From contig NZ_CP107020.1 of NCBI RefSeq assembly GCF_025725725.1, positions 1,240,001 through 1,304,000 on the forward strand: a DNA stretch of 64,000 nt, written 5' to 3'. Position numbers and translations under genes: made by a program. The DNA is from Brachybacterium huguangmaarense (GTDB lineage: Bacteria; Actinomycetota; Actinomycetes; Actinomycetales; Dermabacteraceae). Each line of letters starts with the position of its first letter. Within the stretch, counting starts at the first letter, position 1. The notes below the pieces were generated by a model that saw nothing but the letters and a program-made list of their open reading frames with translations, was not told where the DNA came from and searched no databases. Shown in pieces: positions 16,399-38,863 of the stretch.

Positions 16399-19221
<2,823 letters not shown>

Positions 19222-19938: not shown

Positions 19939-22266
19939 TCACCACTCGAGGATGGCCCAGCGCTTCTTCTTGGCGATCGAGTAGAGGCCGAGGTCCGGCG
20001 AGACCGCCGACGGCGTGCCCACGAGCTCGAGCCACGAGGCGTCGGCGAGCGAGTCGCCGTAGCCGTAGGACTTCTTGAGATCGGCGCCGACCCGGCCGGC
20101 GTACTTGCGCAGCCAGTTCGCGCGCGCCTCGTCGACGACCGGGGGAGTGGCGAGGTAGCCGGTCATCACGCCGTTCGCGTCGACGTCCATGTGGGTCGCG
20201 ACGACCTCGTCGAAGAGGTCGGCGAGCGGCTCCACGAGCACGTCGAGCGCGCCCGTGACCAGGACGGTGCGATGGCCGGCCTGCTGATGCCGCTCGATGA
20301 GCTCGAGCGCCTCGGGACGGATCGACGCCCGGATCCGGCGGCCGAGCTGGCCCTGCATGAGGGCGCGCAGCTCGTCGGCGCGGAAGCCGCGGTAGCGGCG
20401 GTTGACCGAGCGGATGAACTCCGAGCGGTCGCGCCGCTCGGTGCGCAGGTAGCCCGGGAGGGCCCCCAGCAGGTTGCCGATCTCGCCCGGCCACTGGCGC
20501 TTGGACCGCGTGGCGCGCATGACCTCGAGGTACTGCTGGACGATGTTGGTGGCCACCACGGTGCCGTCGAGGTCGAACACCGCCAGGATGTCCGAGCCCT
20601 CCTTCATGGGCGGCGCGGGACGGCCTGCGCGGCGGTCGAGCGTGGCCTTGCGACGCGAGTACGCCTTGGTCAGCTCCGTCACGGCGGGCAGGTGCAGCTC
20701 GCGGAAGTAGCGCAGCCAGTCCAGCTCGGCGATGTCGAAGTCCAGCTCGGCCCGCTCGACGCCCTCGAGCGCACCGGCCACGCCCTCCGTCGAGGTGCCG
20801 CCGCGCAGGAAGGCCTCGGGCAGCTCCTCGCGCAGGGCGCGCGTGTTGGCGTCGTCGAAGACCATCTCGGTCTTCGTGTACTGCCGGTACAGCTCGGTGT
20901 ACTTGCGCAGGGTCTCGAGGCCCGACGCGTTGCGGTGCAGCGTCGAGGTCCACTCGCGGGTCCGCCGGGTCGCGGGAAGGCGGGACACCGCCACCTGGCC
21001 CGCCTTGGTCGCGAGCTCCTTGAGGCGGAAGCGCACGTCGACCGCCTCGACCGCGGGGAAGTCCCACTCGGGCACCTCGATCGGCCGGCCCTTCTCGTCC
21101 TCGAGGGGCTGCTCGACGAAATAGCCGCGCACGGCCGTGACCATCTCGTGGAACGGCAGCGGGTTGGTCGCGCCCGAGACCACCTGGAAGTACGCCTCGT
21201 CGCCCCGACGGTCGACCTTCTGGGTCGCGAGCGCCACGATCACGTTGACCACGAAGTCGACGGGGATGATGTCGAGGATCGAGTCGGCCAGGCCCGGGAA
21301 CTCGGGCAGCAGCCCGCGCCCGTAGGCCATGATGAGCGGATCGGCGACCTTGTAGCCGTCGATCCAGCCCGGGTAGGGGCGCCGCAGCGCCGACTCGATG
21401 ATCGACGGGCGCACGAACGACACGCGGTGCCCGGCGGAGGCCCACAGGTCCTCGGCCACCCGCTCGGCCATGGCCTTGGTGAACGTGTAGATGTCGGTCC
21501 AGCCGACCGACTGGGCGCGCGTGCGCCCGTAGTCGACGAGACGGTCGTGGACCCACGTGGTGCGCAGCTCCTCGGCGGCCGCGGCGACGGCCTTGGGGCC
21601 CATCTTGCCCTGGCGCACACGCGCGGCGAGCATCTGGGAGCGCAGGGTCTCGGGCGTGCGGGACTGCGCCTCGACCCGGTGGTGGGCGGCGAGCGCGGCC
21701 TCGTGCTCGGCGCGCCAGTCGACGTCGTGCGCGAGCGAGCCCTCCTGACGCAGGCCCTTGGAGATGCCGCCCACGTACGCGGTGGAGACGTGGATGACGT
21801 GCGGATCCTGCCCGGACGCGAGGAGCGCCTCGTAGAGGTTGCGGGCGCCGCCGACGTTGGTGCGGAAGGCCTCGTCGATGGGCGGGTCGAAGGACACCGA
21901 GGACGCCGAGTGGATGACGGTGTCGATGCGCTGCTCGATCGCGGGCATGTCCGTGAGGTCGCCCTCGAGGATGTCGACGCGCTCGTCGAAGGCACGACGG
22001 ACCTCGTCGGCGCCGACGCGCTCGCCCCAGGACGTGAACACGGGCTTGCGCAGCAGTCCCTCGAGACGCTTGCGGCCCGTCTGCACGCCCTTGGGGCGGA
22101 CGAGGGCGGTGACGCGCACGGCGGGGAAGTTCTCGAGAAGGGACTGCAGCACGGCCTGGCCGAGGAACCCCGTGACCCCGGTGAGCAGGATCTGCTGGTC
22201 GGCGCGGGGAGCCGTGCTCGGCTCGGTGCTCGGATCCGTGCTCGACGAGGCGGGCGTGTTCGGCAT
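19939..22266 (-). CDS. Fatty acyl-CoA reductase fused to a HAD-IB phosphatase-like domain
   Basis: 775 residues. The N-terminal domain (about 24-540) is a fatty acyl-CoA/ACP reductase of the extended SDR class: NADP loop TGVTGFLG at 29-36, HVSTAYVGG near 160, and active site Tyr260/Lys264 (YTFTK). It would reduce activated fatty acids to fatty alcohol. The C-terminal 220 residues form a HAD-IB domain: nucleophile FDLDGTVV near 565, and YGYGDSLADASWLE near 735, all catalytic aspartates present. Divergent, 198 bases apart, from the SDR-PlsC-alkylglycerone-phosphate-synthase operon, where fatty alcohol is a substrate. Role of the HAD half is unknown; a lipid phosphate phosphatase is one inference. 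Confidence 0.9.
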   Translation of the reverse strand: MPNTPASSSTDPSTEPSTAPRADQQILLTGVTGFLGQAVLQSLLENFPAVRVTALVRPKGVQTGRKRLEGLLRKPVFTSWGERVGADEVRRAFDERVDILEGDLTDMPAIEQRIDTVIHSASSVSFDPPIDEAFRTNVGGARNLYEALLASGQDPHVIHVSTAYVGGISKGLRQEGSLAHDVDWRAEHEAALAAHHRVEAQSRTPETLRSQMLAARVRQGKMGPKAVAAAAEELRTTWVHDRLVDYGRTRAQSVGWTDIYTFTKAMAERVAEDLWASAGHRVSFVRPSIIESALRRPYPGWIDGYKVADPLIMAYGRGLLPEFPGLADSILDIIPVDFVVNVIVALATQKVDRRGDEAYFQVVSGATNPLPFHEMVTAVRGYFVEQPLEDEKGRPIEVPEWDFPAVEAVDVRFRLKELATKAGQVAVSRLPATRRTREWTSTLHRNASGLETLRKYTELYRQYTKTEMVFDDANTRALREELPEAFLRGGTSTEGVAGALEGVERAELDFDIAELDWLRYFRELHLPAVTELTKAYSRRKATLDRRAGRPAPPMKEGSDILAVFDLDGTVVATNIVQQYLEVMRATRSKRQWPGEIGNLLGALPGYLRTERRDRSEFIRSVNRRYRGFRADELRALMQGQLGRRIRASIRPEALELIERHQQAGHRTVLVTGALDVLVEPLADLFDEVVATHMDVDANGVMTGYLATPPVVDEARANWLRKYAGRVGADLKKSYGYGDSLADASWLELVGTPSAVSPDLGLYSIAKKKRWAILEW

Positions 22267-22464
22267 GCTGGGCTTCCCCTGGGGACGGCGGCGGTGGACG
22301 GGGCCCCGTGCCGCGGTCGCGCCCGTCCGCCTCGATGCCTGCGTCGTCGCAGGTGGGACGCAGGTTCCGGGGGTGAGGAGGGGCGGTCTTCGCAGGGCTC
22401 GGAGCCCGGCGGGACGAGGGTCGTCCCGACGCTGGTCAGCGCCTCGCTAGTGTACCGTAGGCCC
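22267..22464. promoter_or_regulatory. Divergent promoter region of the ether-lipid locus
   Basis: 198 bases without a gene. Rightward, TACCGT at 22453-22458 lies six bases before the ATG of the SDR gene. Leftward I see a purine-rich ribosome site (AGGGGAAG) before the reductase start but no clear promoter. No operator palindrome stands out. Confidence 0.45.
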
Positions 22465-23256
22465 ATGCACAGGGCCCTGATCACCGGTGGCACATCCGGC
22501 ATCGGAGCAGCATTCGCGACGGCGCTCGCACGGCGGGGGGTTGACCTCGTCCTGGTCGCCCGCAACGCCGCGCGGCTCGAGGAGACCGCCGAGCAGCTGC
22601 GTCGCGACTTCGGCATCGGCGTCGAGACCGTCGCCGCCGACCTCTCCGACCGCGACGACCAGCAGCGCGTCGCCGACCGTCTCGAGGCCGACGACACCGC
22701 CGAGGGGACCCCGCCGATCGACATGCTCGTCAACAACGCCGGCTTCTCGGTGCGCACGGAGCTGACCGATCCCGACATGAGCGAGCACGACCTCGGCTAC
22801 GAGGTCATGATGCGCTCGGTCATCGTGCTCTCGGGCGCCGCCGCCCGCGCGATGGAGCGGCGCGGCGAGGGATGGATCGTCAACGTCGGCTCCGTGAGCG
22901 CCTTCGTCACCCAGAACAACTACTCGGCCATCAAGTCGTGGGTGAACTCGTACACCGAGGCCCTGCACGTGCAGCTCCACGACCGCGGCATCCACGTCAC
23001 GCTGCTCGCGCCCGGCTGGGTGCGCACCGAGTTCCACTCGCGCGCCGGCATCAAGGGCTCGTCGATTCCCGGGTTCCTGTGGCTCAGCCCGCAGCGCCTC
23101 GTCGAGGAGTGCCTCAAGGACATGGCGCGCGACAAGGTCATCTCGATCCCGTCCACGCGCTTCAAGGTGATCGTGGTGCTCGCGCGGATCGCCCCGCGCA
23201 ACCTCATCCACCGGCTGAGCGGACTGCTCAGCTCGCGCCGCAGCAAGGAGGGCTGA
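22465..23256 (+). CDS. Short-chain dehydrogenase, candidate acyl/alkyl-dihydroxyacetone-phosphate reductase
   Basis: 263 residues, classical SDR. Visible are TGGTSGIG (cofactor loop, residues 7-14), ADLSD, NNAG, VGSVSAF (serine) and YSAIK (catalytic Tyr and Lys). The C-terminal extension with FKVIVVLARIAPRNLIHRL is basic and hydrophobic and could hold it to the membrane. It opens the operon with plsC (five-base gap) and the alkylglycerone-phosphate-synthase gene. In animals an SDR (DHRS7B/PexRAP) reduces alkyl-DHAP after that synthase; by context this SDR is the prime candidate for that step. SDR substrate specificity cannot be read from sequence alone. Confidence 0.85.
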   Translation: MHRALITGGTSGIGAAFATALARRGVDLVLVARNAARLEETAEQLRRDFGIGVETVAADLSDRDDQQRVADRLEADDTAEGTPPIDMLVNNAGFSVRTELTDPDMSEHDLGYEVMMRSVIVLSGAAARAMERRGEGWIVNVGSVSAFVTQNNYSAIKSWVNSYTEALHVQLHDRGIHVTLLAPGWVRTEFHSRAGIKGSSIPGFLWLSPQRLVEECLKDMARDKVISIPSTRFKVIVVLARIAPRNLIHRLSGLLSSRRSKEG

Positions 23257-23261
23257 GCGCC

Positions 23262-24083
23262 GTGTCCCCGTCCCCCGACCCCTCCGCGTCCGGCTCGTCC
23301 CGCCAGCGCCGGCCCTCGCTGTCCTCGCGCTCGCGCGCCGAGGGCTTCGACTACTCCGACGAGCAGCTCGCCATGTACCGGTCGCGCTGGCGCGCCGTCG
23401 TGCGCCGCGTCCTGCAGCGCGGCATCTTCCGCCTCGTCGTGCGCTCGGCCGTCACTCCGAGCGTCGAGGTCAACCGCCGCGTGCGCTCGATCCGCGGCCC
23501 GTTCGTGCTGGTCGCCAACCACACGAGCCATGTCGACGCCCCGCTGCTCGCGATGAGCCTGCCCTGGACCCAGGCGCGGCTGCTCTCGACCGGCGTCGCC
23601 GCGGACTACTGGCACCCCGTCTGGTACCGCCGCCTGTTCGTGCGCTGGATGATGAACGCGTACTTCATCGACCGTGACGGCTCGCGCAAGAACGCCGGGG
23701 TCTCCCGGCGCCTGCTGCGCGGCGGCGTGCCGATCCTCGTGTTCCCCGAGGGCGGTCGCCAGCAGACCGGTGTGCTGGGGGCGTTCAACCCCGGCGCTGC
23801 CGCGCTCGCGGCGAGCGGCGGCGTGCCCGTCGTGCCGGCCGCGATCGTGGGCGGCTACGAGGCGATGCCCAAGGGCCGCTACTGGCCGCGGCCCGGCCGC
23901 CCGCCGGTCGGGGTCATCTTCGGCGAGCCGCTCATGGCCGACCCCGACGAGACCGTCACGGACTTCACCGCCCGCATCCGCGCGAGCGTGCAGGACCTGT
24001 ACCAGACCCATCACGATCAGATCCTCGGGGCCTCCGACGGCCCCGAGCCCCCGGACCAGGAGAAGAAGGCGAGCACTCGATGA
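23262..24083 (+). CDS. PlsC-type 1-acyl-glycerol-phosphate/DHAP acyltransferase
   Basis: 273 residues from a GTG at 23262 (AAGGAGG about ten bases upstream). The acyltransferase blocks are clear: NHTSHVDAP (HX4D), FIDRDGSRK, FPEGGRQQTG and VPAAIVGGYEAMPKG. Such enzymes put an acyl chain on a glycerol-phosphate-type acceptor at the membrane. Lying between the SDR and the alkylglycerone-phosphate synthase, with a four-base ATGA overlap to the latter, it may acylate DHAP to supply acyl-DHAP, or acylate the alkyl-glycerol-phosphate product at sn-2. Which of the two is undecided. Confidence 0.88.
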   Translation: MSPSPDPSASGSSRQRRPSLSSRSRAEGFDYSDEQLAMYRSRWRAVVRRVLQRGIFRLVVRSAVTPSVEVNRRVRSIRGPFVLVANHTSHVDAPLLAMSLPWTQARLLSTGVAADYWHPVWYRRLFVRWMMNAYFIDRDGSRKNAGVSRRLLRGGVPILVFPEGGRQQTGVLGAFNPGAAALAASGGVPVVPAAIVGGYEAMPKGRYWPRPGRPPVGVIFGEPLMADPDETVTDFTARIRASVQDLYQTHHDQILGASDGPEPPDQEKKASTR

Positions 24084-25798
24084 CGACAGCGGCGACCCCG
24101 GGCAGCGCACGAGAGGTCAAGCGCCACAAGTGGTGGGGGTGGGGTCTCGACGACGTCACCTTCCGCTGGGACAACAAGCCCGCGTTCGCCCCGTTCGCGT
24201 ACGACAAGATCGGCATCGACCTGCCGTCGCTGCCGCCGGCCGTCGAGCCGCAGCTCTCGGACTTCGAGGTGCCCGCCTCGATCCTGCCCGGCGACGTGCG
24301 CGCCCGCCTCGTCGAGGTGCTCGGCGAGGACAACGTCGCGACCGACGACGAGTACCGCGTCGTGCACTCCTTCGGCCGCTCGGTCCGCGACCTCTACCGC
24401 GTGCGCACGGGCGACTTCGTCCGCCTCGTCGACGCGGTCGTGTACCCGGGGACCGAGGAGGAGGTCCAGCGGGTCCTCGAGATCGTGCTGGACGCGGACC
24501 TCGTGCTGATCCCCTACGGCGGCGGCTCGTGCATCTCCGGCTCCGTCACCCCCGACGTCGACGAGAAGCGCCCCGTCGTCACGCTCAACCTGGGCCGGAT
24601 GCGCCGCGTGCTGTCGATCGACGACACCGCCGGCCTCGCGGTCGTCGAGGCGGGGGTCTACGGGCCCGACCTCGAGGAGCAGCTCAACGCCGACGGGTGG
24701 ACGCTGGGCCATTTCCCGGACTCCTTCGCCTACTCGACGCTCGGCGGATGGACGGCGACCCGCTCGACGGGCATGCAGAGCGACAAGTACGGCGACATCG
24801 CCGACATCGTGCGCGGGCTGCACCTCGTCCATCCCCGCGGGGTGCTGCGCATCAAGGGTCTCCCGAGCCAGTCGACCGGGCCGAGCCTGCGCGAGATCGT
24901 GGTGGGCTCCGAGGGGCGCCTCGGCGTGATCACCCAGGTCACCGTGCAGGTGCACCGTCTGGCCCCCGAGCGTCAGGTGATCGCGTACATGTTCCCCGAC
25001 TGGGAGCACGGGATCCGCACGATGCACGCGATCACGCGCAACACCGACATCCACACGACCTTCGCGCGGCTGTCCGACGGCGACGAGACCGCGTTCTCCC
25101 TGTCCATGCTCAAGGAGCCGACGACGCTCAAGTCGAAGGTGACCGCGACCGTGCAGGACAAGCTCTTCGCGTACCTCGCCTCGAAGGGCTGGGACACGGA
25201 GCGGGGGATGTGCATCGGCTACGTGTGCTTCGAGGGCTCGAAGGAGGCGGTGGCGCGCCAGCAGGGCGTGGTCAAGAAGATCGTCAAGGCCAACGACGGC
25301 GTCTCGCTCGGCGCGGGCGCCGGCAAGATCTACGACCAGAAGAAGTTCGACACGCCCTACCTGCGCGACTTCCTGCTCGACTACGGGGTGTTCGGCGACG
25401 TCTCGGAGACCGCCGCCCCGTGGTCGCGGCTGAACGAGGTGCACGCCGAGGTCACGGCGGCGGTCCACCGGGCGCTCGACGAGATCGGCCGCCCCGGCTT
25501 CGTGTTCTGCCACATGTCGCACAGCTACCACTCCGGGGCGTGCCTCTACTTCACCTTCGCCTTCCCGTTCACGGACGACGATCGGGCTCTCGCGGAGTAC
25601 GACACGGTCAAGCGCACGATGCAGCAGGCGTTCATCGACCACGGCGCGACCCTGTCGCACCACCACGCGGTGGGCACCGAGCATCAGCCGTGGATGGAGC
25701 AGGACGTCACCGCGGTGGGCGTGAGCATCCTGCAGGACCTGTTCACGACCTCCGATCCCGGTCGGAACCTCAACCCGGGCAAGATCGTCACGCCCTGA
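24080..25798 (+). CDS. Alkylglycerone-phosphate synthase homologue (FAD enzyme of ether-lipid synthesis)
   Basis: 572 residues. This family exchanges the acyl chain of acyl-DHAP for a fatty alcohol, creating the ether bond. The match runs over the full length: start KWWGWG, FAD loop PYGGGSCISG, then GHFPDSFAYSTLGGW and RSTGMQSDKYGDI, GSEGRLGVITQ, and a C-terminal catalytic part with ARLSDG, YLRDFLLDYGVFGDVSET, SYHSGACLYFTFAF (the tyrosine shown to be catalytic in the mammalian enzyme, here about residue 482) and LSHHHAVG (His triplet, about 527; the mammalian form has HHHGVG). It is the last gene of the SDR-plsC operon, overlapping plsC by four bases. A D-lactate-dehydrogenase-like FAD oxidase is the alternative, but the HHH and YHSGAC blocks favour the synthase. 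Confidence 0.9.
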   Translation: MTTAATPGSAREVKRHKWWGWGLDDVTFRWDNKPAFAPFAYDKIGIDLPSLPPAVEPQLSDFEVPASILPGDVRARLVEVLGEDNVATDDEYRVVHSFGRSVRDLYRVRTGDFVRLVDAVVYPGTEEEVQRVLEIVLDADLVLIPYGGGSCISGSVTPDVDEKRPVVTLNLGRMRRVLSIDDTAGLAVVEAGVYGPDLEEQLNADGWTLGHFPDSFAYSTLGGWTATRSTGMQSDKYGDIADIVRGLHLVHPRGVLRIKGLPSQSTGPSLREIVVGSEGRLGVITQVTVQVHRLAPERQVIAYMFPDWEHGIRTMHAITRNTDIHTTFARLSDGDETAFSLSMLKEPTTLKSKVTATVQDKLFAYLASKGWDTERGMCIGYVCFEGSKEAVARQQGVVKKIVKANDGVSLGAGAGKIYDQKKFDTPYLRDFLLDYGVFGDVSETAAPWSRLNEVHAEVTAAVHRALDEIGRPGFVFCHMSHSYHSGACLYFTFAFPFTDDDRALAEYDTVKRTMQQAFIDHGATLSHHHAVGTEHQPWMEQDVTAVGVSILQDLFTTSDPGRNLNPGKIVTP

Positions 25799-29275: not shown

Positions 29276-30133
29276 TCAGTCCTGCTCGGGGGCGGGGGAG
29301 GCGGCCGATCCGGGCGGCATGCCCTTGCCGAAGACGGGCGCCGCCTGGGGGCGCTTGGGCACCAGGTCGTCGCCGGAGGACTGGTGGCGCAGGCGTCGCA
29401 GCACCCAGGGGCCGAAGTGCGAGCGCGCCCACTGCAGGTCTCCCTGGCGTGCGGCGCGCCAGGTGAGCAGCGGTGCGTCCTCGGGGTCGGCCGGGTGCAG
29501 GTGGTGGGGGACGTGCAGGGTGTCGAGGACCTCGGCCGCGATCGTCTGGTGCCCGCGCGCCGAGAAGTGCAGGCGGTCCTCGGCCCACATCGACTCGTGG
29601 GTGAGCGCCCGCAGCGCCCACAGGTCCACCACGGCGGCGTCGTGGCGGGACGCGATCGTGCGCAGGTTCTCGTTGTAGATCGCGGCGCGGCCGCGGATCA
29701 GGTTGAGCACCGGCGTCGAGCCGACGTCCGGCGCGGTGAACAGGACGACGGTGGCGCCGGTGTCCGCGAGCCGCCCGACCGTCTCGTCGATCTCGACGGC
29801 GATCGCATCGGGATCGGCGAGCCGCAGCACGTCGTTGCCGCCGGCCATGAAGTTCACCAGTTCGGGCTCGAGGGCGAGCGCCGGCTCGAGCTGCTCGTCG
29901 ATGATCTGCCGGAAGAGACGGCCCCGGATCGCGAGGTTGGCGTACGAGAAGCCGTCGACGTCGCTGCCCAGCTCCTCGGCGACCCGGTCGGCCCAGCCGC
30001 GGTGGCCGCCCGGCACGGTCGGGTCGGGATCGCCGATCCCCTCGGTGAAGGAGTCGCCGATCGCGACGAAGCGGGTCCAGGGGTGGCGGGCGGGCTCGCC
30101 GTCGGGGAGCGGGGGCACCTCCGTCGAGGACAT
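29276..30133 (-). CDS. SGNH/GDSL-type esterase
   Basis: 285 residues. The four SGNH blocks are present: FVAIGDSFTEG (catalytic Ser, near residue 27), NLAIRG, FMAGGNDVL and DRLHFSARGH (Asp and His of the triad). No signal peptide, so a cytoplasmic lipase/esterase acting on an unknown ester. The start is eight bases from the upstream crgA stop with CGGGG between, so it is probably the last gene of the cell-division/kinase operon. The C-terminal 60 residues are proline-rich. Confidence 0.9.
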   Translation of the reverse strand: MSSTEVPPLPDGEPARHPWTRFVAIGDSFTEGIGDPDPTVPGGHRGWADRVAEELGSDVDGFSYANLAIRGRLFRQIIDEQLEPALALEPELVNFMAGGNDVLRLADPDAIAVEIDETVGRLADTGATVVLFTAPDVGSTPVLNLIRGRAAIYNENLRTIASRHDAAVVDLWALRALTHESMWAEDRLHFSARGHQTIAAEVLDTLHVPHHLHPADPEDAPLLTWRAARQGDLQWARSHFGPWVLRRLRHQSSGDDLVPKRPQAAPVFGKGMPPGSAASPAPEQD

Positions 30134-30138
30134 CCCCG

Positions 30139-30711
30139 TCACTTCCAGCGCATGAGCAGCCCGCCGCCGACGACCATGATCCCGAACCCCACGAGCAGGT
30201 TCCAGTCCTGGATCGGGAGCGGCAGCTGACCGCCCGAGAGGTAGAAGGCGACGAGGTAGACGAGGCCCACGATCAGCAGCGTGACCGCGGTCGGGGCCAG
30301 CCACGCGGGGTTCGGCGCGGTCGCGGCGACCCGTCGACGCGTGGTCGTGGTGCGCGTGCGCTCGGCCTCGGCGCTGCGGCGGGCGCGCGCGGTGCCGGTG
30401 GCTGAGGAGTCCTTGGCCTCGTCGGGGACCTCGAGGCGGGCCGGGGCGCGGCGCTTCGAGGGCTCGGCGCGGCGCTTCGACGGCTCGGAGGCCCGCTTCG
30501 CGGCCCGCCGGCGGGGAGCGATCGTGTCGCCGAAGCCGTCGAAGTCGTCGTCGGACGCCTCCTCCGCGCCGTCCGCCGCGGCCTCCTCGGCCTCGGCGGT
30601 GCCATCGGTTGCGGGCGACTCGACGGTCGTGTCGTCGGGCTGCTCGACGAGGGCCTCGTCCGTCTCGGCGGGGCGGGTGGTGGCCGTCGGTGTGCGCTTC
30701 CTGCGCGCCAT
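30139..30711 (-). CDS. crgA: Cell division protein CrgA with long charged N-terminal extension
   Basis: 190 residues; usual CrgA is about 85-95. The C-terminal 75 residues are the CrgA core: NPAWLAPTAVTLLIVGLVYL, a short loop with QDWNLLVGFGIMVVGG and the end LLMRWK, giving two membrane helices. CrgA recruits FtsZ-ring partners and PBPs during septation and growth in actinobacteria. The first 115 residues are disordered: an acidic block (EAEEAAADGAEEASDDDFD) and then a basic block with a repeated EPSKRRA. It follows pknB, the same neighbourhood as in mycobacteria, and could be a substrate of the kinases (inference). Confidence 0.9.
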   Translation of the reverse strand: MARRKRTPTATTRPAETDEALVEQPDDTTVESPATDGTAEAEEAAADGAEEASDDDFDGFGDTIAPRRRAAKRASEPSKRRAEPSKRRAPARLEVPDEAKDSSATGTARARRSAEAERTRTTTTRRRVAATAPNPAWLAPTAVTLLIVGLVYLVAFYLSGGQLPLPIQDWNLLVGFGIMVVGGGLLMRWK

Positions 30712-30738
30712 GCGTTCTCCGTTCAGCGGTGCGGAGGA

Positions 30739-32814
30739 TCAGCCCTGGGGCTGGTCCTCGTCGGTGGGCGTCCCGGTCTCGGTCGGGGTCGGGGACGTCG
30801 ACTCGGTGGGCGAGGCCGGTGCCGAGGTGGTCGGGGTGGGCTCCGGCCCGTCGGACACCACGATCGTGACGGTCGACCCCGCGTCGACGGGGGAGTTGGC
30901 CTCCGGGTCGGTGCGGATCACGGAGCCCTTGGGCACGTCGCTCGAGTGCTCGGTGGTGCGCTTGACGCCGAGGCCGAGGTCGCCCAGCTTCGTGGCCGCG
31001 GCGTCCGCGGTCTGCCCGGTCAGGTTCGGCACGGTCACGGGGCCGGGGGCCGTGGCCACGACGATCTGCACGGTCGAGCCCTTCTCGGCCGTCTGGGTGC
31101 CGTCGCTCGCGGGATTCTGCGAGGTCACGGTGTCGGGATCGACGGTGTCGCTCTCGGCCTCGGTCACCTCGGCCTTGAGACCCGCCTCCTCGATCGCCTT
31201 CACGGCGTCGTCCTTCTTCATGTCGACCACGGCGGGCACGGTCACGTCGCCCGAGGCGGTCCACACCTCGATGGTGTCGCCCTCGCTCGCGGTCGTGCCC
31301 GCGGCCGGCTTGCTGCGCGTGATCTGCCCCTTGTCGACGTCCTTGGAGTCCTCGGAGTCCACGACCTTCAGGCCCAGGCCCTGCGCATCGAGGATCTGCT
31401 CGGCCTCGTCGGGGGTCTTGCCCGTGAGGTCGGGGACGTCGACGGTGCCCGGCCCGCTCGAGACCACGACGGTGACGGTCGAGGCCGTGGCGACCTCCTT
31501 GCCCGAGGTCGGGTCCGTCGAGATCACGCGGCCCTTCTCGACGTCGGCGTCCGCCTTCGGCGTGAACGCGGGCTTGAGGCCCGCGTCCTTGAGCTTCGCG
31601 GAGGCCTCGGCCTGGGTGTCGCCCACGAGATCGGGCACGGTCGCGGTGTCGGCGCCCCCGAAGGGGTTGAAGTACGCCAGGGCGGCCGCCGCGATCGCGA
31701 GGACCGCCAGGATGATCAGCACGAACAGCCACACCGGCCGCCGATGCCGCTTCTCGGCCGCGTCGTCGCCGGGCGGCGTGGCGCCGGGCCCCGTCGGCGC
31801 GGGCGCCGAGGCGACCGGGGCGACGGCGTGGCCGCCCTGGGTCGGGATCAGCTGGGTCTCGCCCTCGGGCAGCACCTGGGTGGCGCCGACGGGGGAGAGC
31901 ACCGTCGTGGTCTGACCGTCGGCGCCCGTGAGGGTGCCGCCCGCGACGAGCTGCGGGGGACGCCCCGCGACGACCGCCGCGATGTCGCGCGAGAAGGCGA
32001 CCGCGCTCGGATAGCGCTCGTCGCGGTCTTTCGCGAGCCCCGTGAGGATCACGGCGTCCATGGGTGGCGGGATCGTGGGGTTGTACGTCGACGGCGGGAC
32101 CGGGTTCTCCCGCACGTGCTGGTAGGCGATCGAGACGGGCGAGTCGCCCGTGAACGGCGGGCGCCCGGTGAGCATCTCGTACAGCACGCACGCGGCGGAG
32201 TAGATGTCCGAGCGGGCGTCGACGAGCTGGCCGCGCGCCTGCTCGGGCGAGAGGTACTGGGCGGTCCCCATGACTGCCTGGGTCTGCGTCATCGCGCTCG
32301 TCGCGTCCGCGACCGCGCGGGCGATCCCGAAGTCCATCACCTTCACGGCGCCGTGCTCGGTGATCATGATGTTGCCGGGCTTGATGTCGCGGTGCACGAT
32401 GCCGCGCTCGTGCGAGTACTCGAGCGCCGACAGCACGCCGGCCATGATCTCGGCGGCCTGGCGCATCTCCATCGGCCGGTCCTCGTGGATGAACGCGCGC
32501 AGGGTGCGGCCCTCGACGTACTCCATGACGATGTACGGGATCGAGATCTCGTGGCCGCGCTCGGTGCGGTGGTCCTCGCCCGTGTCGTAGACGGACACGA
32601 TCGCGGGATGGTTGAGGCCCGCGGCGCTCTGGGCCTCCCGGCGGAAGCGCTCCTGGAAGGAGTCGTCGCGGGCGAGGTCGGAGCGCAGCACCTTGACGGC
32701 GACCGTGCGATGCAGGCGCGTGTCGGTCGCGAGGTACACCTCGGCCATGCCGCCACGTCCGATGACGTGGCCCAGCTCGTACCGGCCGCCCAGGACCACG
32801 GGTTTCTCGCTCAC
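30739..32814 (-). CDS. pknB: Serine/threonine protein kinase PknB with four PASTA domains
   Basis: 691 residues. Kinase domain 12-275: GRGGMAEVY loop at 19-27, HRDIKPGN, MDFGIAR, activation loop with TQTQAVMGTAQYLSPEQ. A juxtamembrane region leads to one membrane helix (about 356-383), then four extracellular PASTA repeats beginning VPDLVGDT, VPDLTGKT, VPAVVDMK and VPNLTGQT, and a Thr/Ser/Pro tail. PASTA modules bind muropeptides/lipid II, so the kinase couples wall state to growth. Follows pknA, in the standard fhaA-to-pknB order; PstP is the cognate phosphatase. Confidence 0.97.
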   Translation of the reverse strand: MSEKPVVLGGRYELGHVIGRGGMAEVYLATDTRLHRTVAVKVLRSDLARDDSFQERFRREAQSAAGLNHPAIVSVYDTGEDHRTERGHEISIPYIVMEYVEGRTLRAFIHEDRPMEMRQAAEIMAGVLSALEYSHERGIVHRDIKPGNIMITEHGAVKVMDFGIARAVADATSAMTQTQAVMGTAQYLSPEQARGQLVDARSDIYSAACVLYEMLTGRPPFTGDSPVSIAYQHVRENPVPPSTYNPTIPPPMDAVILTGLAKDRDERYPSAVAFSRDIAAVVAGRPPQLVAGGTLTGADGQTTTVLSPVGATQVLPEGETQLIPTQGGHAVAPVASAPAPTGPGATPPGDDAAEKRHRRPVWLFVLIILAVLAIAAAALAYFNPFGGADTATVPDLVGDTQAEASAKLKDAGLKPAFTPKADADVEKGRVISTDPTSGKEVATASTVTVVVSSGPGTVDVPDLTGKTPDEAEQILDAQGLGLKVVDSEDSKDVDKGQITRSKPAAGTTASEGDTIEVWTASGDVTVPAVVDMKKDDAVKAIEEAGLKAEVTEAESDTVDPDTVTSQNPASDGTQTAEKGSTVQIVVATAPGPVTVPNLTGQTADAAATKLGDLGLGVKRTTEHSSDVPKGSVIRTDPEANSPVDAGSTVTIVVSDGPEPTPTTSAPASPTESTSPTPTETGTPTDEDQPQG

Positions 32815-32827
32815 AGTCCAACCGTCC

Positions 32828-34192
32828 TCATGACATGACCGGGCCGTCTGCGGCCCATCCGACCATCGTAGGTGACGCCCCGGCCAGCGCGAACAGATGC
32901 CCGGTGCCGCCCAGCACGGCGACCACGACCACCACGAGCAGCAGCAGGATCAGCAGCAGCCCGGGCACCGAGAAGGGCCCCAGGCGCCGCCCCGTCGACG
33001 TGCCGCGGGTGGTCCGCTCGGTGCGACCGGAGTCGCCCGACGTGCCCTCCGGGCCGGCGGCCGCCGCATCGGCGGGGCGCCAGGCCCCGCTCGGCGAGAC
33101 CTGCGCCGCACGGCGCGCCTCGGAGCCCGGTGCGGGCTGCGGGCTCGAGGCCGAGAGCCCCGAGGGGGCCGACAGGCCCGAGCTCGCCGAGGGCCCCGAG
33201 CGGTGACGGATGCCGCGCCGGCCCGAGGTGCGCGGCAGCGGCATCGCCGCGGTGCGCGTGCCCGTGGGGCTCGTCGCCACGCCGCCGGGGCTCGCCGACG
33301 TCGAGGCGGGCTGCTCGCCCGTGCTGCGGACCGAGGGGATCGCGCCCGTCGTGAAGCGGGGGTGCTCGCCGCGCTGGATGGACTCCAGGATGCGCGCGAC
33401 GGCCGAGGCGGACCGCGGACGGTTCGCGGGGGCCTTGGCGAGCGTCATCGAGACGAGCTGGCGCAGGTCCGGGTCGATCGACGCGGGCAGCTCGGGTGCC
33501 GGCTGCTTGACCTGCGCCATCGCGATGTCGACCTGGCTCGCGCCGGTGAAGGGCCGGTGTCCCGTCAGCATCTCGAAGGCCACGATCCCGAGCGCGTACA
33601 CGTCCGAGAGCGAGGTGGCCTGCTTGCCCATGGCCTGCTCGGGGGAGAGGTACTGGGCGGTGCCCATCACGAGCCCCGTCTTGGTCAGCCGCGCCTGGTC
33701 GGTGCTGCGGGCGATCCCGAAGTCCGTGATCTTCATGCGCCAGTCGTGGTCCTCGTCGACGAGGATGTTCTCGGGCTTGACGTCGCGGTGCACGACGCCC
33801 TTGGAGTGGGCGGCGTCGAGAGCGCGCGCGAGGTCGATGAGCACCGAGATGACGCGGCGCTCGGGCAGGCCCCCGGGGTTCTCCTCGATGATCTCCGAGA
33901 GCGGGCGGCCCGTGCACAGCTCCATCACGATGTAGGCGCGCCCGTCGAGCTCGCCGTAGTCGTAGAGCGCGGCGATCGCGTCGTGCGAGAGGGCCGCGGT
34001 GTGGCGCGCCTCGGCGCGGAAGCGCTTGAGGAAGCCCTCGTCGCCCGCGTACTCCTCGCGCAGCACCTTGACCGCCACGTCGCGGTCGAGGTCCTGGTCG
34101 CGTCCCTTCCAGACCTGGCCCATGCCGCCCGTCGCGATCAGCTCGACGAGCTCGTAGCGGCCCTCGAGCACCAGTCCCGGCTGCGTCCTCAC
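32828..34192 (-). CDS. pknA: Serine/threonine protein kinase PknA
   Basis: 454 residues from a GTG at 34192, which overlaps the pbpA stop (GTGA). Kinase domain 1-270: GRYELVELIATGGMGQVWKG, AVKVL, HRDVKPEN, TDFGIAR, GTAQYLSPEQ. A Ser/Pro/Arg-rich linker follows, with one membrane helix near the C-terminus (VPGLLLILLLLVVVVVAVLG) and a short outside tail; no PASTA domains. It is the classical partner kinase of PknB in control of cell shape and division. Confidence 0.95.
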   Translation of the reverse strand: MRTQPGLVLEGRYELVELIATGGMGQVWKGRDQDLDRDVAVKVLREEYAGDEGFLKRFRAEARHTAALSHDAIAALYDYGELDGRAYIVMELCTGRPLSEIIEENPGGLPERRVISVLIDLARALDAAHSKGVVHRDVKPENILVDEDHDWRMKITDFGIARSTDQARLTKTGLVMGTAQYLSPEQAMGKQATSLSDVYALGIVAFEMLTGHRPFTGASQVDIAMAQVKQPAPELPASIDPDLRQLVSMTLAKAPANRPRSASAVARILESIQRGEHPRFTTGAIPSVRSTGEQPASTSASPGGVATSPTGTRTAAMPLPRTSGRRGIRHRSGPSASSGLSAPSGLSASSPQPAPGSEARRAAQVSPSGAWRPADAAAAGPEGTSGDSGRTERTTRGTSTGRRLGPFSVPGLLLILLLLVVVVVAVLGGTGHLFALAGASPTMVGWAADGPVMS

Positions 34193-35634
34193 GGCGAGAC
34201 CACCGCCTCCATGATGTCGCGCGCGATCGGGGCGGCGGCACGGGCGCCGTAGCCGCCCTCCTCGACCACGACCGCGACGGCCACCTTGCGGTCGCCGGCG
34301 TTGGCGTAGCCCACGAACCAGGCGTGGGGGGTGCGGCCCGAGCCCCACTGGGCGGTGCCCGTCTTGCCGCCCACCTCGGCGCCGTCGATCTGCGCGGCCG
34401 TGCCGGTGCCGTCCTCGACGGTCGCGACCATCATGTCGCGCATCTGCGCGGCGTTGGAGGCCGAGAGCGGCTGGGAGAGCTTGGTGGAGGTGAGCGAGGA
34501 GATCTCCTTGAGGTCGCTCGTGCGGACCGACTGCACGAGCTGCGGCTCCATGACGACGCCGTCGTTGTCGAAGGACGCGGCGACCATCGCCATCTGCAGC
34601 GGGGTGACGCGGTCCTCGTACTGGCCGATCGAGGTGGTCGCGAGCTGGGCGCCGTCGAGGTCGTCGCCGATGCTCGAGGGCGTGACCCGCATCGGGATCG
34701 ACATCTTGGTGCCGAAGCCGTACTCCGCGGTGATGTCCTGCAGCGCCTTCTGCCCGAGCGCCGTGCCCAGGAGCGCGAACGACGTGTTGCACGACTGGCG
34801 CAGGGCGTCCTGCAGGCTCGACTGGTCGCCGTCGCCGCACGGGGTGGTGTCGCCCTCGGAGTGGTTGTTCATGACGTTGGAGGAGCCCGGCAGCTGGTAC
34901 GTGCCGGGGCCCGGGATCACGGAGTCCTTCGTGTACTGGCCCGAGTCGAGCGCGGCGGCGGCCACGAGCAGCTTGAACGTCGACCCCGGCGGGTACAGGT
35001 CGCCGCCGATCGCCCGGTTGGTCATCGGCTTGGAGGAGTCCTTGGACAGCGACTGCCAGGTCTCGGTCACGGCGCTGCGGCTGTGGCTGGCCATGTCGTT
35101 GGGGTCGTACGACGGGGTCGAGGCCATCGCGAGGATCGCCCCGGTCTCCGGGTCGAGCGCGACGGCCGCCCCCCGATGGCCCTGCAGGCCGTCCCACGCG
35201 GCCTTCTGCGCCGCGGGGTCGATCGTGAGCTCGACGGTCGCGCCCTGCGGGGTGCGGCCCGAGACGATGTCGGAGATGCGCTGGTAGAACAGCGAGTCCG
35301 CCTCGCCCGAGAGCGTGTCGTTGAGGGAGTTCTCGAGGCCCGTGAAGCCGTAGACGACCGAGTAGTAGCCCGTCACGGGCGCGTACATCGGCCCGTCGGC
35401 GTAGGTGCGCTGGTAGCCGTAGGTGTCGTCGGTCTTGACCGAGTCGGCGATCGGGTCGCCCGCGACCACGATGGGCCCGCGGTCCCGACCGAACTCCGCG
35501 TACAGGGTGCGGTGGTTGCGCGAGTCGTCGTTGAGCGACTTGGCCTGGATGGCCTGGATGTACGTGGTCGAGCCGAACAGGAACACGAACAGGATCCCGA
35601 CGACGAGGGCGACGTGGCGCAGCGGCTTGTTCAT
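34189..35634 (-). CDS. pbpA: Class B penicillin-binding protein (PbpA type transpeptidase)
   Basis: 481 residues. One N-terminal membrane anchor (residues 7-28) followed by a dimerisation domain and the transpeptidase domain with SxxK PPGSTFK, SxN SCN (RQSCNTSF) and KTG GGKTGTAQ. It cross-links peptidoglycan outside the membrane and normally pairs with the SEDS protein RodA, encoded directly upstream. Gap to rodA is one base. Confidence 0.96.
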   Translation of the reverse strand: MNKPLRHVALVVGILFVFLFGSTTYIQAIQAKSLNDDSRNHRTLYAEFGRDRGPIVVAGDPIADSVKTDDTYGYQRTYADGPMYAPVTGYYSVVYGFTGLENSLNDTLSGEADSLFYQRISDIVSGRTPQGATVELTIDPAAQKAAWDGLQGHRGAAVALDPETGAILAMASTPSYDPNDMASHSRSAVTETWQSLSKDSSKPMTNRAIGGDLYPPGSTFKLLVAAAALDSGQYTKDSVIPGPGTYQLPGSSNVMNNHSEGDTTPCGDGDQSSLQDALRQSCNTSFALLGTALGQKALQDITAEYGFGTKMSIPMRVTPSSIGDDLDGAQLATTSIGQYEDRVTPLQMAMVAASFDNDGVVMEPQLVQSVRTSDLKEISSLTSTKLSQPLSASNAAQMRDMMVATVEDGTGTAAQIDGAEVGGKTGTAQWGSGRTPHAWFVGYANAGDRKVAVAVVVEEGGYGARAAAPIARDIMEAVVSP

Positions 35635-35635
35635 G

Positions 35636-37012
35636 TCAGCCCACCTCCGCCGGGGCCGGTGCGGTCTCGGGGGCGATGCGGCGCGCGGCGGGACGCCGGG
35701 CCGCGTCCGAGAGCCGCACGAGGATGCCCACGATGATCCAGTTGGCCACGAGGGAGGATCCGCCCGCGGCGAGGAAGGGGAGCGTGAGGCCGGTCAGCGG
35801 GAGCACCCGGGTCACGCCCCCGACGACGACGAAGACCTGCAGCGCGATGACGAAGCCGAGCCCCCCGGCGAGCAGGGTCCCGAAGCCGTCGGAGATGCCC
35901 ACGGCCGCGCGCAGCGAGCGCTGGACCAGCAGCAGGTACAGGACGAGCACGGCGAAGGCGCCGACCATGCCCATCTCCTCGGCGAGGCCCGCGTAGATGA
36001 AGTCGCTCTGGCCGAACGGCACCATGTTGGGGCGCCCGTTGCCCAGGCCCGAGCCGAGCACGCCGCCGCTGCCCATGCCGAACAGCCCCTCGTTGATCTG
36101 GCCGCAGCGGGAGAAGTTCGCCGAGCTCATCGGGTCGAGCCAGCAGGTCAGGCGGGTGCGCACGTGGCTGACCTGGGTGACCGCGAAGATCGCGGGCGGC
36201 AGGAACATGACCGCCCCGATGATGAGCCAGCTCAGGCGGTCGGTCGCGATATACAGCATCGCGACGAACAGGCCGAAGAACATGAGGGACGTGCCCAGGT
36301 CGGTCTCGAACACGAGCACCGCGACGGCGAAGGCCCACGCCACCAGGATCGGCCCGAAGTCCGACCAGCGCGGCAGATGGATGCCGAGCACCTTGGGGCC
36401 GGCCAGGGCGAGCGTGTCGCGCCGGGAGACCAGGTATCCCGCGAAGAACACGGCGAAGCAGATCTTGGCGATCTCCGCGGGCTGGAAGCTGTAGCTGCCG
36501 ACCGCGATCCAGATCCGCGCCCCATACACGCTGCGCCCGAGGCCGGGCACGAGCGGCAGCAGCAGGAACACGGCGCCGACGAGCGCGCTGACCCACGTGT
36601 AGCGGCGCAGCAGGCGGTGGTCGCGCAGGAGCGCGAGCACCACGAGCGCGAGCACCACGCCGACGACCGTCCAGATCAGCTGACGGTCCGCGTAGTGCGT
36701 GGCCTTGGACGCGTACAGCGCCTTGGCGGAGTCGAAGCTCGAGATGGCCGACAGCCCGATCAGGTTCAGCAGCAGCACAAGCGGCAGGATGACCGGGTCC
36801 GCGTAGGGGGCGCGCCACATGACGACCGCCTGCAGGGCGACCGCGAGCACGGTCACCACGATCGCGGTGGTCGGCAGCGAGGGAGGGATCTCCCCGGTGC
36901 GCCCGAGGCCCACGAGGGCGTACGCGCCCAGCCCGATGACCAGTGCGAAGAGGAGCAGCAGGGCATGGGTGAACCGGCGCGTGCGCGCGGTGTACGAGAC
37001 GACGGTCGTCAC
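35636..37012 (-). CDS. rodA: SEDS-family peptidoglycan glycosyltransferase RodA/FtsW
   Basis: 458 residues with about twelve membrane helices. Family blocks include IWIAVGSYSFQPAEIAKI, ETDLGTSLMFFGLF, FGMGSGGVLGSGLGNG, FAEEMG-type FIYAGLAEEMGMVGAF and GVTRVLPLTGLTLPFLAAGGSS. It polymerises lipid II into glycan strands and works with the adjacent PbpA. The GTG start at 37012 directly follows the TAA of pstP. Confidence 0.96.
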   Translation of the reverse strand: MTTVVSYTARTRRFTHALLLLFALVIGLGAYALVGLGRTGEIPPSLPTTAIVVTVLAVALQAVVMWRAPYADPVILPLVLLLNLIGLSAISSFDSAKALYASKATHYADRQLIWTVVGVVLALVVLALLRDHRLLRRYTWVSALVGAVFLLLPLVPGLGRSVYGARIWIAVGSYSFQPAEIAKICFAVFFAGYLVSRRDTLALAGPKVLGIHLPRWSDFGPILVAWAFAVAVLVFETDLGTSLMFFGLFVAMLYIATDRLSWLIIGAVMFLPPAIFAVTQVSHVRTRLTCWLDPMSSANFSRCGQINEGLFGMGSGGVLGSGLGNGRPNMVPFGQSDFIYAGLAEEMGMVGAFAVLVLYLLLVQRSLRAAVGISDGFGTLLAGGLGFVIALQVFVVVGGVTRVLPLTGLTLPFLAAGGSSLVANWIIVGILVRLSDAARRPAARRIAPETAPAPAEVG

Positions 37013-38356
37013 TTACCCCCCTGCGCTCTCGGTCGTGGTCGGCGCGGGCTCGGACGGCACGGCGCCGGGCTGGGCCGACTGCTCGGCCGCCTGCTGCTCG
37101 GCCTGGGCGGCCTCCTCCTGGGCGCGCCGCGCCTCCTGGGTGCGGCTCGCCTCGTCGCGGAGCGTCGCGACGACCTCGTCGGCGGCCTCGCGCGAGTCGG
37201 CGGGGATCGTGTCCCGGACCTGCTCGAGCGTCACCGACGAGAGGTCGTCGGTGCTGATGCCCGTCGACTCGATGCGATGGGACAGGTGCACGGGCCCGAG
37301 GTCCTGGGAGACGCCCTGGTAGACGACGATCTCGTCGTCCTGCGCCGCCACGTAGTACTGGCCCTGGGTCCACGCGTACCCGGCCCACAGGCCGCCCGCG
37401 AGCACCGCGGCGATCAGCAGGGTCACGACCACGGCGGGCCAGTGGCTGCGCCGCGGGGCGTCCTCCTCGGCGAAGTCCTCGTCCTCGAAGGGGGTCGGGC
37501 GCTCAGGGCGGGTGAGCGCCGCGGCCTTCGCGGCAGGCCCCGACGCCGCCGTGGGCTGGTGGCGCGAACGCCCCGCCGAGCCCACGATCTCGGGGCTCGA
37601 GGACGGGGCGCCCATGCCCTTGGGCAGGGCGTCGAGGTCGACCACGTCGGCGATCACGCACGTGATGTTGTCGGGTCCGCCGCCGCGCAGGGCGAGCTGG
37701 ACGAGGGCGTCGGCGCACTCGCCGGGATCGTCGATCTCCCGCAGGGTGCGGCCGATGGTCTCGAGCGAGACCAGGCCGGAGAGCCCGTCGGAGCACAGCA
37801 TCCAGCGGTCGCCCGCGCGCGCGGGGCGCAGCGACAGGTCGAGCTCGGGGTCGGAGTCGACGTCGCCGAGCACGCGCATGAGCACGCTGCGCTGGGGGTG
37901 GCGCTCCGCCTCCTCGGGCGTCAGGCGGCCCTCGTCCATGAGGCGCTGGACGAAGGTGTGGTCCTTGGTGATCTGCGTGCACTCGCCGTCGCGCAGCAGG
38001 TAGGCGCGCGAGTCGCCGATGTGGGCGAGGGCGAACTTGCCCTCGGCGCGCAGGAGCGCGGTGACGGTGGTGCCCAGGCCCGCGAGCTGGGGCTCGTCGC
38101 GGGCGCGCCGAAGGATCGACTGGTTGGCGTCGAGGATCGCGTCCTCGAGCGCCGCGACGATCTCGGTCGCCGGGGTGTCGGAGTCGAGCTGCGAGAGGCG
38201 ACCGATCACGATCGACGAGGCGACGTCGCCGCCGGCGTGGCCGCCCATGCCGTCGGCGACGGCCACGAGGTGGCTTCCGGCGTAGCCCGAGTCCTGGTTG
38301 TTGGACCGGACCAGGCCCACGTCGGACCGGGCCGCGTAGCGCAGGGCGAAGCTCAT
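37013..38356 (-). CDS. pstP: PP2C-family Ser/Thr protein phosphatase PstP
   Basis: 447 residues. Catalytic PP2C domain (1-235) with metal ligands in RSNNQDSG, VADGMGGHAGG, IGDSRAYLL, SDGLSG and GGGPDNIT. A Pro/acid-rich linker, one membrane helix (residues about 325-345) and an outside domain of about 100 residues ending in an Ala/Gln-rich coiled stretch complete it. It reverses the action of PknA and PknB. ATG at 38356 overlaps the fhaB stop by four bases. Confidence 0.96.
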   Translation of the reverse strand: MSFALRYAARSDVGLVRSNNQDSGYAGSHLVAVADGMGGHAGGDVASSIVIGRLSQLDSDTPATEIVAALEDAILDANQSILRRARDEPQLAGLGTTVTALLRAEGKFALAHIGDSRAYLLRDGECTQITKDHTFVQRLMDEGRLTPEEAERHPQRSVLMRVLGDVDSDPELDLSLRPARAGDRWMLCSDGLSGLVSLETIGRTLREIDDPGECADALVQLALRGGGPDNITCVIADVVDLDALPKGMGAPSSSPEIVGSAGRSRHQPTAASGPAAKAAALTRPERPTPFEDEDFAEEDAPRRSHWPAVVVTLLIAAVLAGGLWAGYAWTQGQYYVAAQDDEIVVYQGVSQDLGPVHLSHRIESTGISTDDLSSVTLEQVRDTIPADSREAADEVVATLRDEASRTQEARRAQEEAAQAEQQAAEQSAQPGAVPSEPAPTTTESAGG

Positions 38357-38856
38357 CGGGGTCCTCGTCTCAGCTCGACCTCGGTGCGGCCGATGCGCAC
38401 CCGGGCGCCCGACTTGAACGGCACCGTGCCCTCGATCTTCTTGCCCGACAGCGTGGTCCCGTTCGTGGAGCCGAGGTCCTCGACCCACCACTGGCCGTCG
38501 CGCTGGAACACCCGGGCGTGCCGGTTGGAGGCGTAGTCGTCGTCGAGCACGAGGGTGCACTCGGGGGCGCGGCCGATCAGCACGGGCGTCGACCCCAGGG
38601 TGAGGGTGGTCCCGCGCAGCGGGCCGGCCGTCACCACGAGCGTGGTCGCGGTGACGGCGGGATCGGTGCGCAGGGCCGCCGCCGCGGCCGGATCGGCCGA
38701 GGGCCTCTGCTCGCGGCGCGGGTCCGGCTTCGAGGCCCGCGTGACCACGGTCGTGCCGAAGAGGTCGTTGCGCAGCACGAGCAGCACGGCGATCACGAAG
38801 ACCCACAGGGCGACGACGAAGCCGATCCGCAGGACGACGATGGTCAGTTCGCTCAC
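38353..38856 (-). CDS. fhaB: FHA-domain membrane protein FhaB (FipA)
   Basis: 167 residues. N-terminal membrane helix (residues 6-28), a linker, then an FHA domain with LIGRAPECTLVLDDDYASNRHA and VEDLGSTNGT, the phosphothreonine-binding loops. In mycobacteria FhaB/FipA links kinase signals with the divisome and CrgA. Position between pstP and fhaA is canonical. Confidence 0.95.
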   Translation of the reverse strand: MSELTIVVLRIGFVVALWVFVIAVLLVLRNDLFGTTVVTRASKPDPRREQRPSADPAAAAALRTDPAVTATTLVVTAGPLRGTTLTLGSTPVLIGRAPECTLVLDDDYASNRHARVFQRDGQWWVEDLGSTNGTTLSGKKIEGTVPFKSGARVRIGRTEVELRRGPR

Positions 38857-38863
38857 GGACGCC

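Follow-up and report, generated by a model that had tools for sequence, protein, structure and literature searches.

Four neighbouring genes of the actinobacterium Brachybacterium huguangmaarense are predicted to encode the committed part of an aerobic pathway for alkyl-ether glycerolipids that departs from dihydroxyacetone phosphate (DHAP), a reading given a probability of about 0.85. The genes lie within a stretch of 64,000 nucleotides of contig NZ_CP107020.1 (assembly GCF_025725725.1, positions 1,240,001 to 1,304,000 of the forward strand), referred to here as the window. They encode a fatty acyl-CoA reductase (FAR) fused to a HAD-type phosphatase domain, a short-chain dehydrogenase/reductase (SDR), a PlsC-family acyltransferase, and a homologue of alkylglycerone-phosphate synthase (AGPS). 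The prediction is built on gene content, catalytic residues, conservation of the genes as a unit, and their joint loss.

Among bacteria, alkyl ethers and plasmalogens have mostly been ascribed to anaerobes, which use PlsA/PlsR, and to myxobacteria, which use ElbD, AGPS, and CarF. The locus and its relatives provide a concrete gene set found across several actinobacterial families. They also single out one enzyme that can be tested for the desaturation still to be accounted for: an iron enzyme of the related clusters may explain the plasmalogens of some air-breathing bacteria.

Organization and conservation of the probable ether-lipid locus

A preliminary description of the locus had listed neighbouring genes for FAR, SDR, PlsC, and AGPS, all of which are present (Table 1), as are the two AGPS motifs it quoted, SYHSGACLYF (the tyrosine being residue 490) and LSHHHAVG (the histidines being residues 527-529). 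It is corrected in two respects: the FAR gene is read from the minus strand, diverging from the SDR, PlsC, and AGPS genes, and its product carries a C-terminal HAD-IB phosphatase domain that had been overlooked. The overlap claimed for the last three genes holds for PlsC and AGPS, which share 4 bp (ATGA), but not for SDR and PlsC, which are 5 bp apart. No match to the sigma-70 consensus was found in the 198-bp divergent region, and a promoter and terminator scan of it was empty.

Table 1 Position of the putative ether-lipid genes in the window and of related loci elsewhere
Feature	Position	Strand	Description
FAR-HAD fusion gene, whole	19939-22266	-	775 aa
HAD-IB phosphatase-like C-terminal domain of FAR-HAD	19939..20586	-	residues 561-775; Pfam HAD, TIGR01490
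Fatty acyl-CoA reductase N-terminal part of FAR-HAD	20676..22266	-	residues about 1-530; NAD_binding_4
Intergenic region FAR-HAD/SDR, divergent	22267..22464	.	198 bp between start codons; from sequence and open reading frame starts
SDR-family reductase	22465-23256	+	263 aa; adh_short; proposed alkyl-DHAP (alkylglycerone-phosphate) reductase
PlsC-family acyltransferase	23262-24083	+	273 aa; GTG start; PF01553; proposed DHAP acyltransferase
AGPS homologue	24080-25798	+	572 aa; proposed ether-bond former
Diiron pair A and B of the B. huguangmaarense genome	G000:C1:674297-676226 (about) = L091:8297-10229		outside the window
Six-gene set on Streptomyces plasmid	L186:3674-11656		diiron A, FAR-HAD, diiron B, SDR, PlsC, AGPS
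FAR-HAD/ADH/LarAH/PlsC cluster loci	L073:2980-9104, L074:6988-13379, L075:7519-13548, L084:4959-11026		

Conservation of the neighbourhood, which had been set beforehand as a test able to refute the prediction, was checked and found in all congeners sampled as well as in further families. Among 47 Dermabacteraceae genomes, FAR-HAD and AGPS occur together in 44 (including 37/37 congeners) and neither occurs in three, the set having been lost as a whole in these family members, while no genome carries one alone. The same four genes are found in Ruaniaceae, Microbacteriaceae, and Jiangellaceae, with AGPS identities of 50-57%. Here, the genes form one co-directional run in Ruaniaceae and are mostly divergent in Microbacteriaceae and Jiangellaceae, and they are divergent in Dermabacteraceae. 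An arrangement that recurs in each sampled congener, and in further families despite changes of gene orientation, is far beyond chance. The whole set is also carried, in the Microbacteriaceae arrangement, by a mobilizable 2.35-Mb plasmid of Streptomyces sp. NBC_01450 (NZ_CP109481.1), and in a maximum-likelihood tree the AGPS sequences of Jiangellaceae nest with those of Microbacteriaceae or of Ruaniaceae. Owing to this nesting and the complete set on the plasmid, the distribution fits selection and transfer of the cluster between families as a functional unit. The plasmid region holding the set has no genes annotated in the genome collection.

Predicted enzymes of the locus

AGPS chemistry is well supported for the FAD enzyme of the locus. 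The protein matches Dictyostelium ADPS (2uuu) with 346 bits over residues 83-570 and guinea pig AGPS (4bby) with 279 bits over residues 15-560, whereas a D-lactate dehydrogenase structure reaches 74 bits only. This full-length homology spans the FAD-binding and cap domains, with matches to PF01565 and PF02913, and identity to the Dictyostelium enzyme is 35% over 488 aligned columns. Mutagenesis of Dictyostelium ADPS has shown that R352, R447, and Y508 are important (PMC3509576). Allowing for an offset of 3 in the PDB chain numbering, these correspond in the alignment to residues R330, R429, and Y490 in the homologue, which are kept in cluster homologues along with the histidines at 527-529, and the catalytic residues are 100% conserved in 80 homologues. 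In the only other FAD-oxidase_C protein of the genome, the two arginine positions fall in gaps, the tyrosine is replaced by histidine, and HHH by AEH, so that the AGPS identity originally proposed for the locus enzyme is upheld. The gene for this other protein lies ~22 kb before the window (G000:C1:1217574-1218314, 936-codon open frame).

Cluster-type AGPS sequences group with Dictyostelium ADPS in the maximum-likelihood tree, although the long Dictyostelium branch makes this placement less sure. A second actinobacterial AGPS-like group, 32-37% identical, stands apart from the cluster type. Several genomes of family f36, among them G133 (loci L066 and L067), have both a cluster-type AGPS gene (51-55%) and a more distant AGPS-like gene (35-40%); at the loci that were read, neither of the two adjoins FAR-HAD.

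The FAR part of the fusion protein matches Pfam NAD_binding_4 (4.8e-46, residues 28-343) and the solved fatty acyl-CoA reductase 7eoz (6e-37, phmmer). All 82 homologues keep its GxxGxxG motif and the tyrosine and lysine of Y-x3-K, while the Sterile/FAR_C domain (PF03015) reaches 24.6 bits against a cut-off of 35.4. The C-terminal part matches Pfam HAD (6e-36, residues about 561-758) and TIGR01490 (108 bits, above its cut-off), and the first aspartate (D565), T569, and the GD and D of GDSxxD are 100% conserved. The second catalytic aspartate (D567, window 20566-20568) is Asp only in Dermabacteraceae; other cluster holders have Glu in most cases and His in nine, e.g., Occultella. 

FAR-HAD is also part of a second conserved actinobacterial cluster, together with a zinc alcohol dehydrogenase (ADH), a LarAH14/15/16 NPN-dependent hydroxyacid isomerase, and PlsC. 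Near the copy of this cluster in locus L084, there are a LarE-like and additional Lar-like reading frames. An attempt to tell cluster from non-cluster types of FAR-HAD by identity alone fails on two Jiangellaceae genomes (G183 and G252), in which a 52%-identical FAR-HAD lies near PlsC with no AGPS; G183 also has LarAH and ADH.

The SDR matches adh_short (3e-38), its structure matches are generic SDR structures, and TGxxxGIG, NNAG, and the tyrosine and lysine of YxxxK are conserved in 83 homologues. PlsC matches PF01553 (1.5e-18), with HX4D and FPEGxR conserved in 68 homologues. The genome encodes four PF01553 proteins including this one, and the other three are proposed to serve housekeeping steps. 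The substrates suggested for SDR and PlsC are read from context only.

Proposed pathway and its alternatives

For B. huguangmaarense, the substrates, the step order, and the product can be inferred as follows. The FAR part would reduce long acyl thioesters, probably iso or anteiso, to fatty alcohol, while PlsC would acylate DHAP. The AGPS homologue would then swap the acyl chain for the fatty alcohol via a flavin adduct, giving 1-O-alkyl-DHAP, which the SDR would reduce to 1-O-alkyl-glycerol-3-phosphate. This intermediate could enter normal phospholipid or glycolipid synthesis via the other PlsC proteins of the genome. As a fifth step, the HAD domain may remove phosphate from an alkyl intermediate, which is a guess, and downstream, an unlinked pair of diiron proteins described below may desaturate the alkyl chain. 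The chemistry would very probably be that used in animal peroxisomes.

Some observations weigh against this pathway. FAR-HAD relatives are found in clusters without AGPS, beside ADH, LarAH, and PlsC, as well as in genomes without AGPS, and FAR-HAD alone is thus not predictive of ether lipids. PlsC and SDR belong to large families whose substrates are not readable from sequence, and the best NCBIfam model of the SDR is the mycolate reductase CmrA (174 bits, below the cut-off of 380). The pathway step of the HAD domain is guesswork, and a Brachybacterium fatty acid profile obtained with the TSBA6 database reports no ether lipids (PMC10581053). The FAR-HAD relatives could also suggest that the fatty alcohol made by FAR-HAD goes into wax esters or another lipid, while AGPS, PlsC, and SDR act on a different substrate. 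Yet, this is improbable, as FAR-HAD and AGPS are both kept in 44/47 genomes of the family and both gone in three, and SDR-PlsC-AGPS and FAR-HAD stand together in four families despite different gene order. That the FAD enzyme should oxidise 2-hydroxyacids or D-lactate, with the four genes forming a chance neighbourhood of general lipid or redox enzymes, is very improbable. Generic NCBIfam matches to GlcD and D-lactate dehydrogenase models would agree with an oxidase, but all are far below cut-off, and a gap of 272 bits favours AGPS. This score gap and the catalytic residues, present in cluster homologues and missing from the other FAD oxidase of the genome, led to the rejection of the 2-hydroxyacid oxidase reading, and the unit is conserved.

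Diiron proteins associated with the cluster

In other families, two further genes of about 265 codons each are found beside the cluster and encode ferritin-like diiron proteins, termed A and B. The cluster itself includes the pair in Ruaniaceae, in most Microbacteriaceae, in several Jiangellaceae, and on the Streptomyces plasmid, while in the B. huguangmaarense genome the pair is unlinked, 0.6 Mb from the cluster. The pair is absent from 5/37 congeners and from 6/6 cluster-bearing genomes of other Dermabacteraceae genera, a patchy occurrence as expected of an optional tailoring step. The six ligands of diiron B (E45, E77xxH80, E141, and E171xxH174 in L104 numbering) are invariant in 86 homologues. 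In diiron A, tryptophan replaces the first histidine and mostly lysine the last glutamate, and these replacements suggest that it probably cannot hold a full metal site. The AlphaFold model of diiron B (mean pLDDT 83) is nearest to soluble acyl-ACP (acyl carrier protein) desaturases (Z 18-19), followed by R2-like oxidases (15-16). Against PF03405, which has a cut-off of 22.7 bits, diiron B gives 19.5 to 24.5 bits or no match, depending on the homologue.

In a sample of the class, diiron B, counted at a minimum of at least 55% identity, occurs in 21/22 cluster-bearing and 4/275 other genomes (Fisher 3e-27, shared ancestry ignored). Of the named genomes with diiron B, 40/42 have AGPS and 2/42 do not; the named holders include Subtercola, Agreia, Plantibacter, Herbiconiux, Salinibacterium, Rhodoglobus, Ruania, Occultella, and Jiangellaceae. 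In the L084 genome, which has no AGPS, the diiron pair adjoins FAR-HAD and PlsC.

Lipid phenotype of cluster carriers

Dimethyl acetals (DMA) are the product of vinyl ethers in acid methanol and a marker of plasmalogens. In four tabulated Subtercola species, branched dimethyl acetals make up about 21-29% of the profile, including i-16:0 DMA (7-17%) and a-15:0 DMA (3-11%), and unsaturated fatty acids are absent or trace, with a-15:1 as a trace in one species, while Agreia has little or no dimethyl acetals (PMC5945732). The genomes of Subtercola lobariae, S. vilae, and S. boreus carry the cluster, which comprises six genes in Subtercola. An a-15:0 dimethyl acetal, confirmed by gas chromatography-mass spectrometry, was reported in Kineococcus rubinsiae and called surprising at first sight for an aerobe by its authors (PMC7472656). 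A general search of the open-access literature, with most subscription journals outside its scope, found no genetic explanation for the dimethyl acetals of aerobic Subtercola and Kineococcus.

Known desaturation routes were searched for in 32 genomes, including six Subtercola, one Agreia, and B. huguangmaarense. The CarF/PEDS1 domain (PF10520, Lipid_desat) gave no match in the B. huguangmaarense genome at E 1 and none in the 32 genomes at E 0.1, a search in which the control genomes gave no true positive either. DUF2229 (PF09989), which is part of PlsA, was matched by 0/32 genomes, while control genomes did match. As neither CarF/PEDS1 nor DUF2229 was found, the vinyl ethers of Subtercola need another desaturase. 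Diiron B is the leading candidate, by a correlation across few taxa, because it has a desaturase fold and lies inside an ether-lipid cluster in cells almost without unsaturated acyl chains.

A routine database misreads one dimethyl acetal as C14:0 2-OH, and by the same account TSBA6 is unable to identify dimethyl acetals (PMC7472656). No report of ether lipids or dimethyl acetals in Brachybacterium or Dermabacter was found in the literature searched. Standard fatty acid profiles would not reveal alkyl ethers, alkylglycerols not being fatty acid methyl esters. Given such misreading and the nature of alkylglycerols, the locus also points to an under-reporting of ether lipids in the taxonomy of actinobacteria.

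Extending the alkyl-ether explanation without excluding it, it could be speculated that the cluster and the unlinked diiron pair make plasmalogens, diiron B with the degenerate A adding the 1'-double bond in place of CarF/PEDS1, and the chance of this is put somewhat short of even. The place of the pair inside the cluster in other families, its co-occurrence with the cluster, the invariant ligands, the desaturase-like model, and Subtercola, rich in dimethyl acetals and with no CarF or DUF2229 match, all argue for it. The co-occurrence count, however, ignores shared ancestry, the pair is unlinked in B. huguangmaarense and missing from some cluster-bearing relatives, and AGPS is missing from two of the diiron-bearing genomes; the controls of the PF10520 search yielded no true positive, and no dimethyl acetal report was found for the genus. 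Tentatively, all parts of a complete aerobic plasmalogen route may be present in the B. huguangmaarense genome, in which FAR-HAD, PlsC, AGPS, and SDR would act jointly with a second, independently evolved O2-dependent desaturase, soluble, ferritin-like, and unrelated to CarF/PEDS1. Alternatively, the diiron pair could desaturate or hydroxylate ordinary acyl chains, or deformylate fatty aldehyde to alkane, and be only co-regulated with the ether genes. While its nearest folds are acyl-ACP desaturases and the pair adjoins FAR-HAD and PlsC in the L084 genome, this is less likely, since Subtercola fatty acids are nearly all saturated despite the genes, and aldehyde deformylation would have no need for AGPS, SDR, and PlsC in the cluster.

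Relation to known ether-lipid systems

The peroxisomal pathway of mammals and Dictyostelium (FAR1, GNPAT, AGPS, and PexRAP/DHRS7B) resembles the locus in that the catalytic part of AGPS is homologous with the essential residues kept, the FAR is FAR1-like, and an acyltransferase and an SDR are also present. However, the FAR is here fused to HAD, the genes form one compact bacterial locus, and the genome has no CarF/PEDS1 match. PlsC and SDR are likened to GNPAT and PexRAP by family motifs, as putative counterparts.

Myxococcus xanthus MXAN_1674-1676, encoding AGPS, a FAR-GNPAT fusion, and a NAD-dependent protein, has been genetically implicated in ether lipids along with elb (PMC9131029). It likewise brings together an AGPS homologue, FAR, acyltransferase, and NAD-dependent protein at a single locus of an aerobic bacterium (PMC9131029), but with FAR fused to a GNPAT-like domain, whereas B. 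huguangmaarense has FAR-HAD, encoded divergently, and a separate PlsC. The myxobacterial elb cluster (elbA-E) shares the functions of FAR, AGPAT-like acyltransferase, HAD (ElbB), and NAD-dependent epimerase/dehydratase. ElbD, in contrast, is one multidomain protein with acyl-CoA synthetase (ACS) and ACP domains, neither of which was found by Pfam in any of the four locus proteins, and AGPS is not among the genes of the elb operon as described. The anaerobic plsA/plsR pathway, a source of plasmalogens in bacteria that include some Actinobacteria (PMC9702350), differs in starting from diacyl lipids instead of DHAP. CarF/TMEM189 (PEDS1) would share with the diiron candidate an O2-dependent step turning alkyl into vinyl ether, but the candidate is a soluble ferritin-like protein of unrelated fold. 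Its closest fold is that of the soluble acyl-ACP desaturases of castor and Mycobacterium tuberculosis (DesA2), with Z 16-19 and a similar ligand pattern, yet identity to these is only about 15-20%, and diiron B is shorter (264 aa), has a degenerate tandem partner, and is linked to ether-lipid genes.

The preliminary description knew of no account of the locus. This must be qualified, as MXAN_1674-1676 is a precedent (PMC9131029), and a metagenome study has reported and counted Agps homologues from Actinobacteria (PMC11868695). No actinobacterial AGPS locus was found in the search of the open-access literature, nor any description of the fusion of FAR with HAD, of the compact gene order in actinobacteria, of the diiron proteins, or of a link to aerobic plasmalogens, and to this extent the claim stands.

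Neighbouring genes in the window

Upstream of the locus lies a gene (16399-19221) that is presumably for phosphoenolpyruvate carboxylase. Its homologues were seen at the same place in several of the family genomes read, which suggests a stable position of the cluster beside them. At about 29276-39577 on the minus strand, a run of genes includes serine/threonine-kinase-like proteins, of which the protein starts only were read, looking like a common actinobacterial block of kinase and cell-wall genes.

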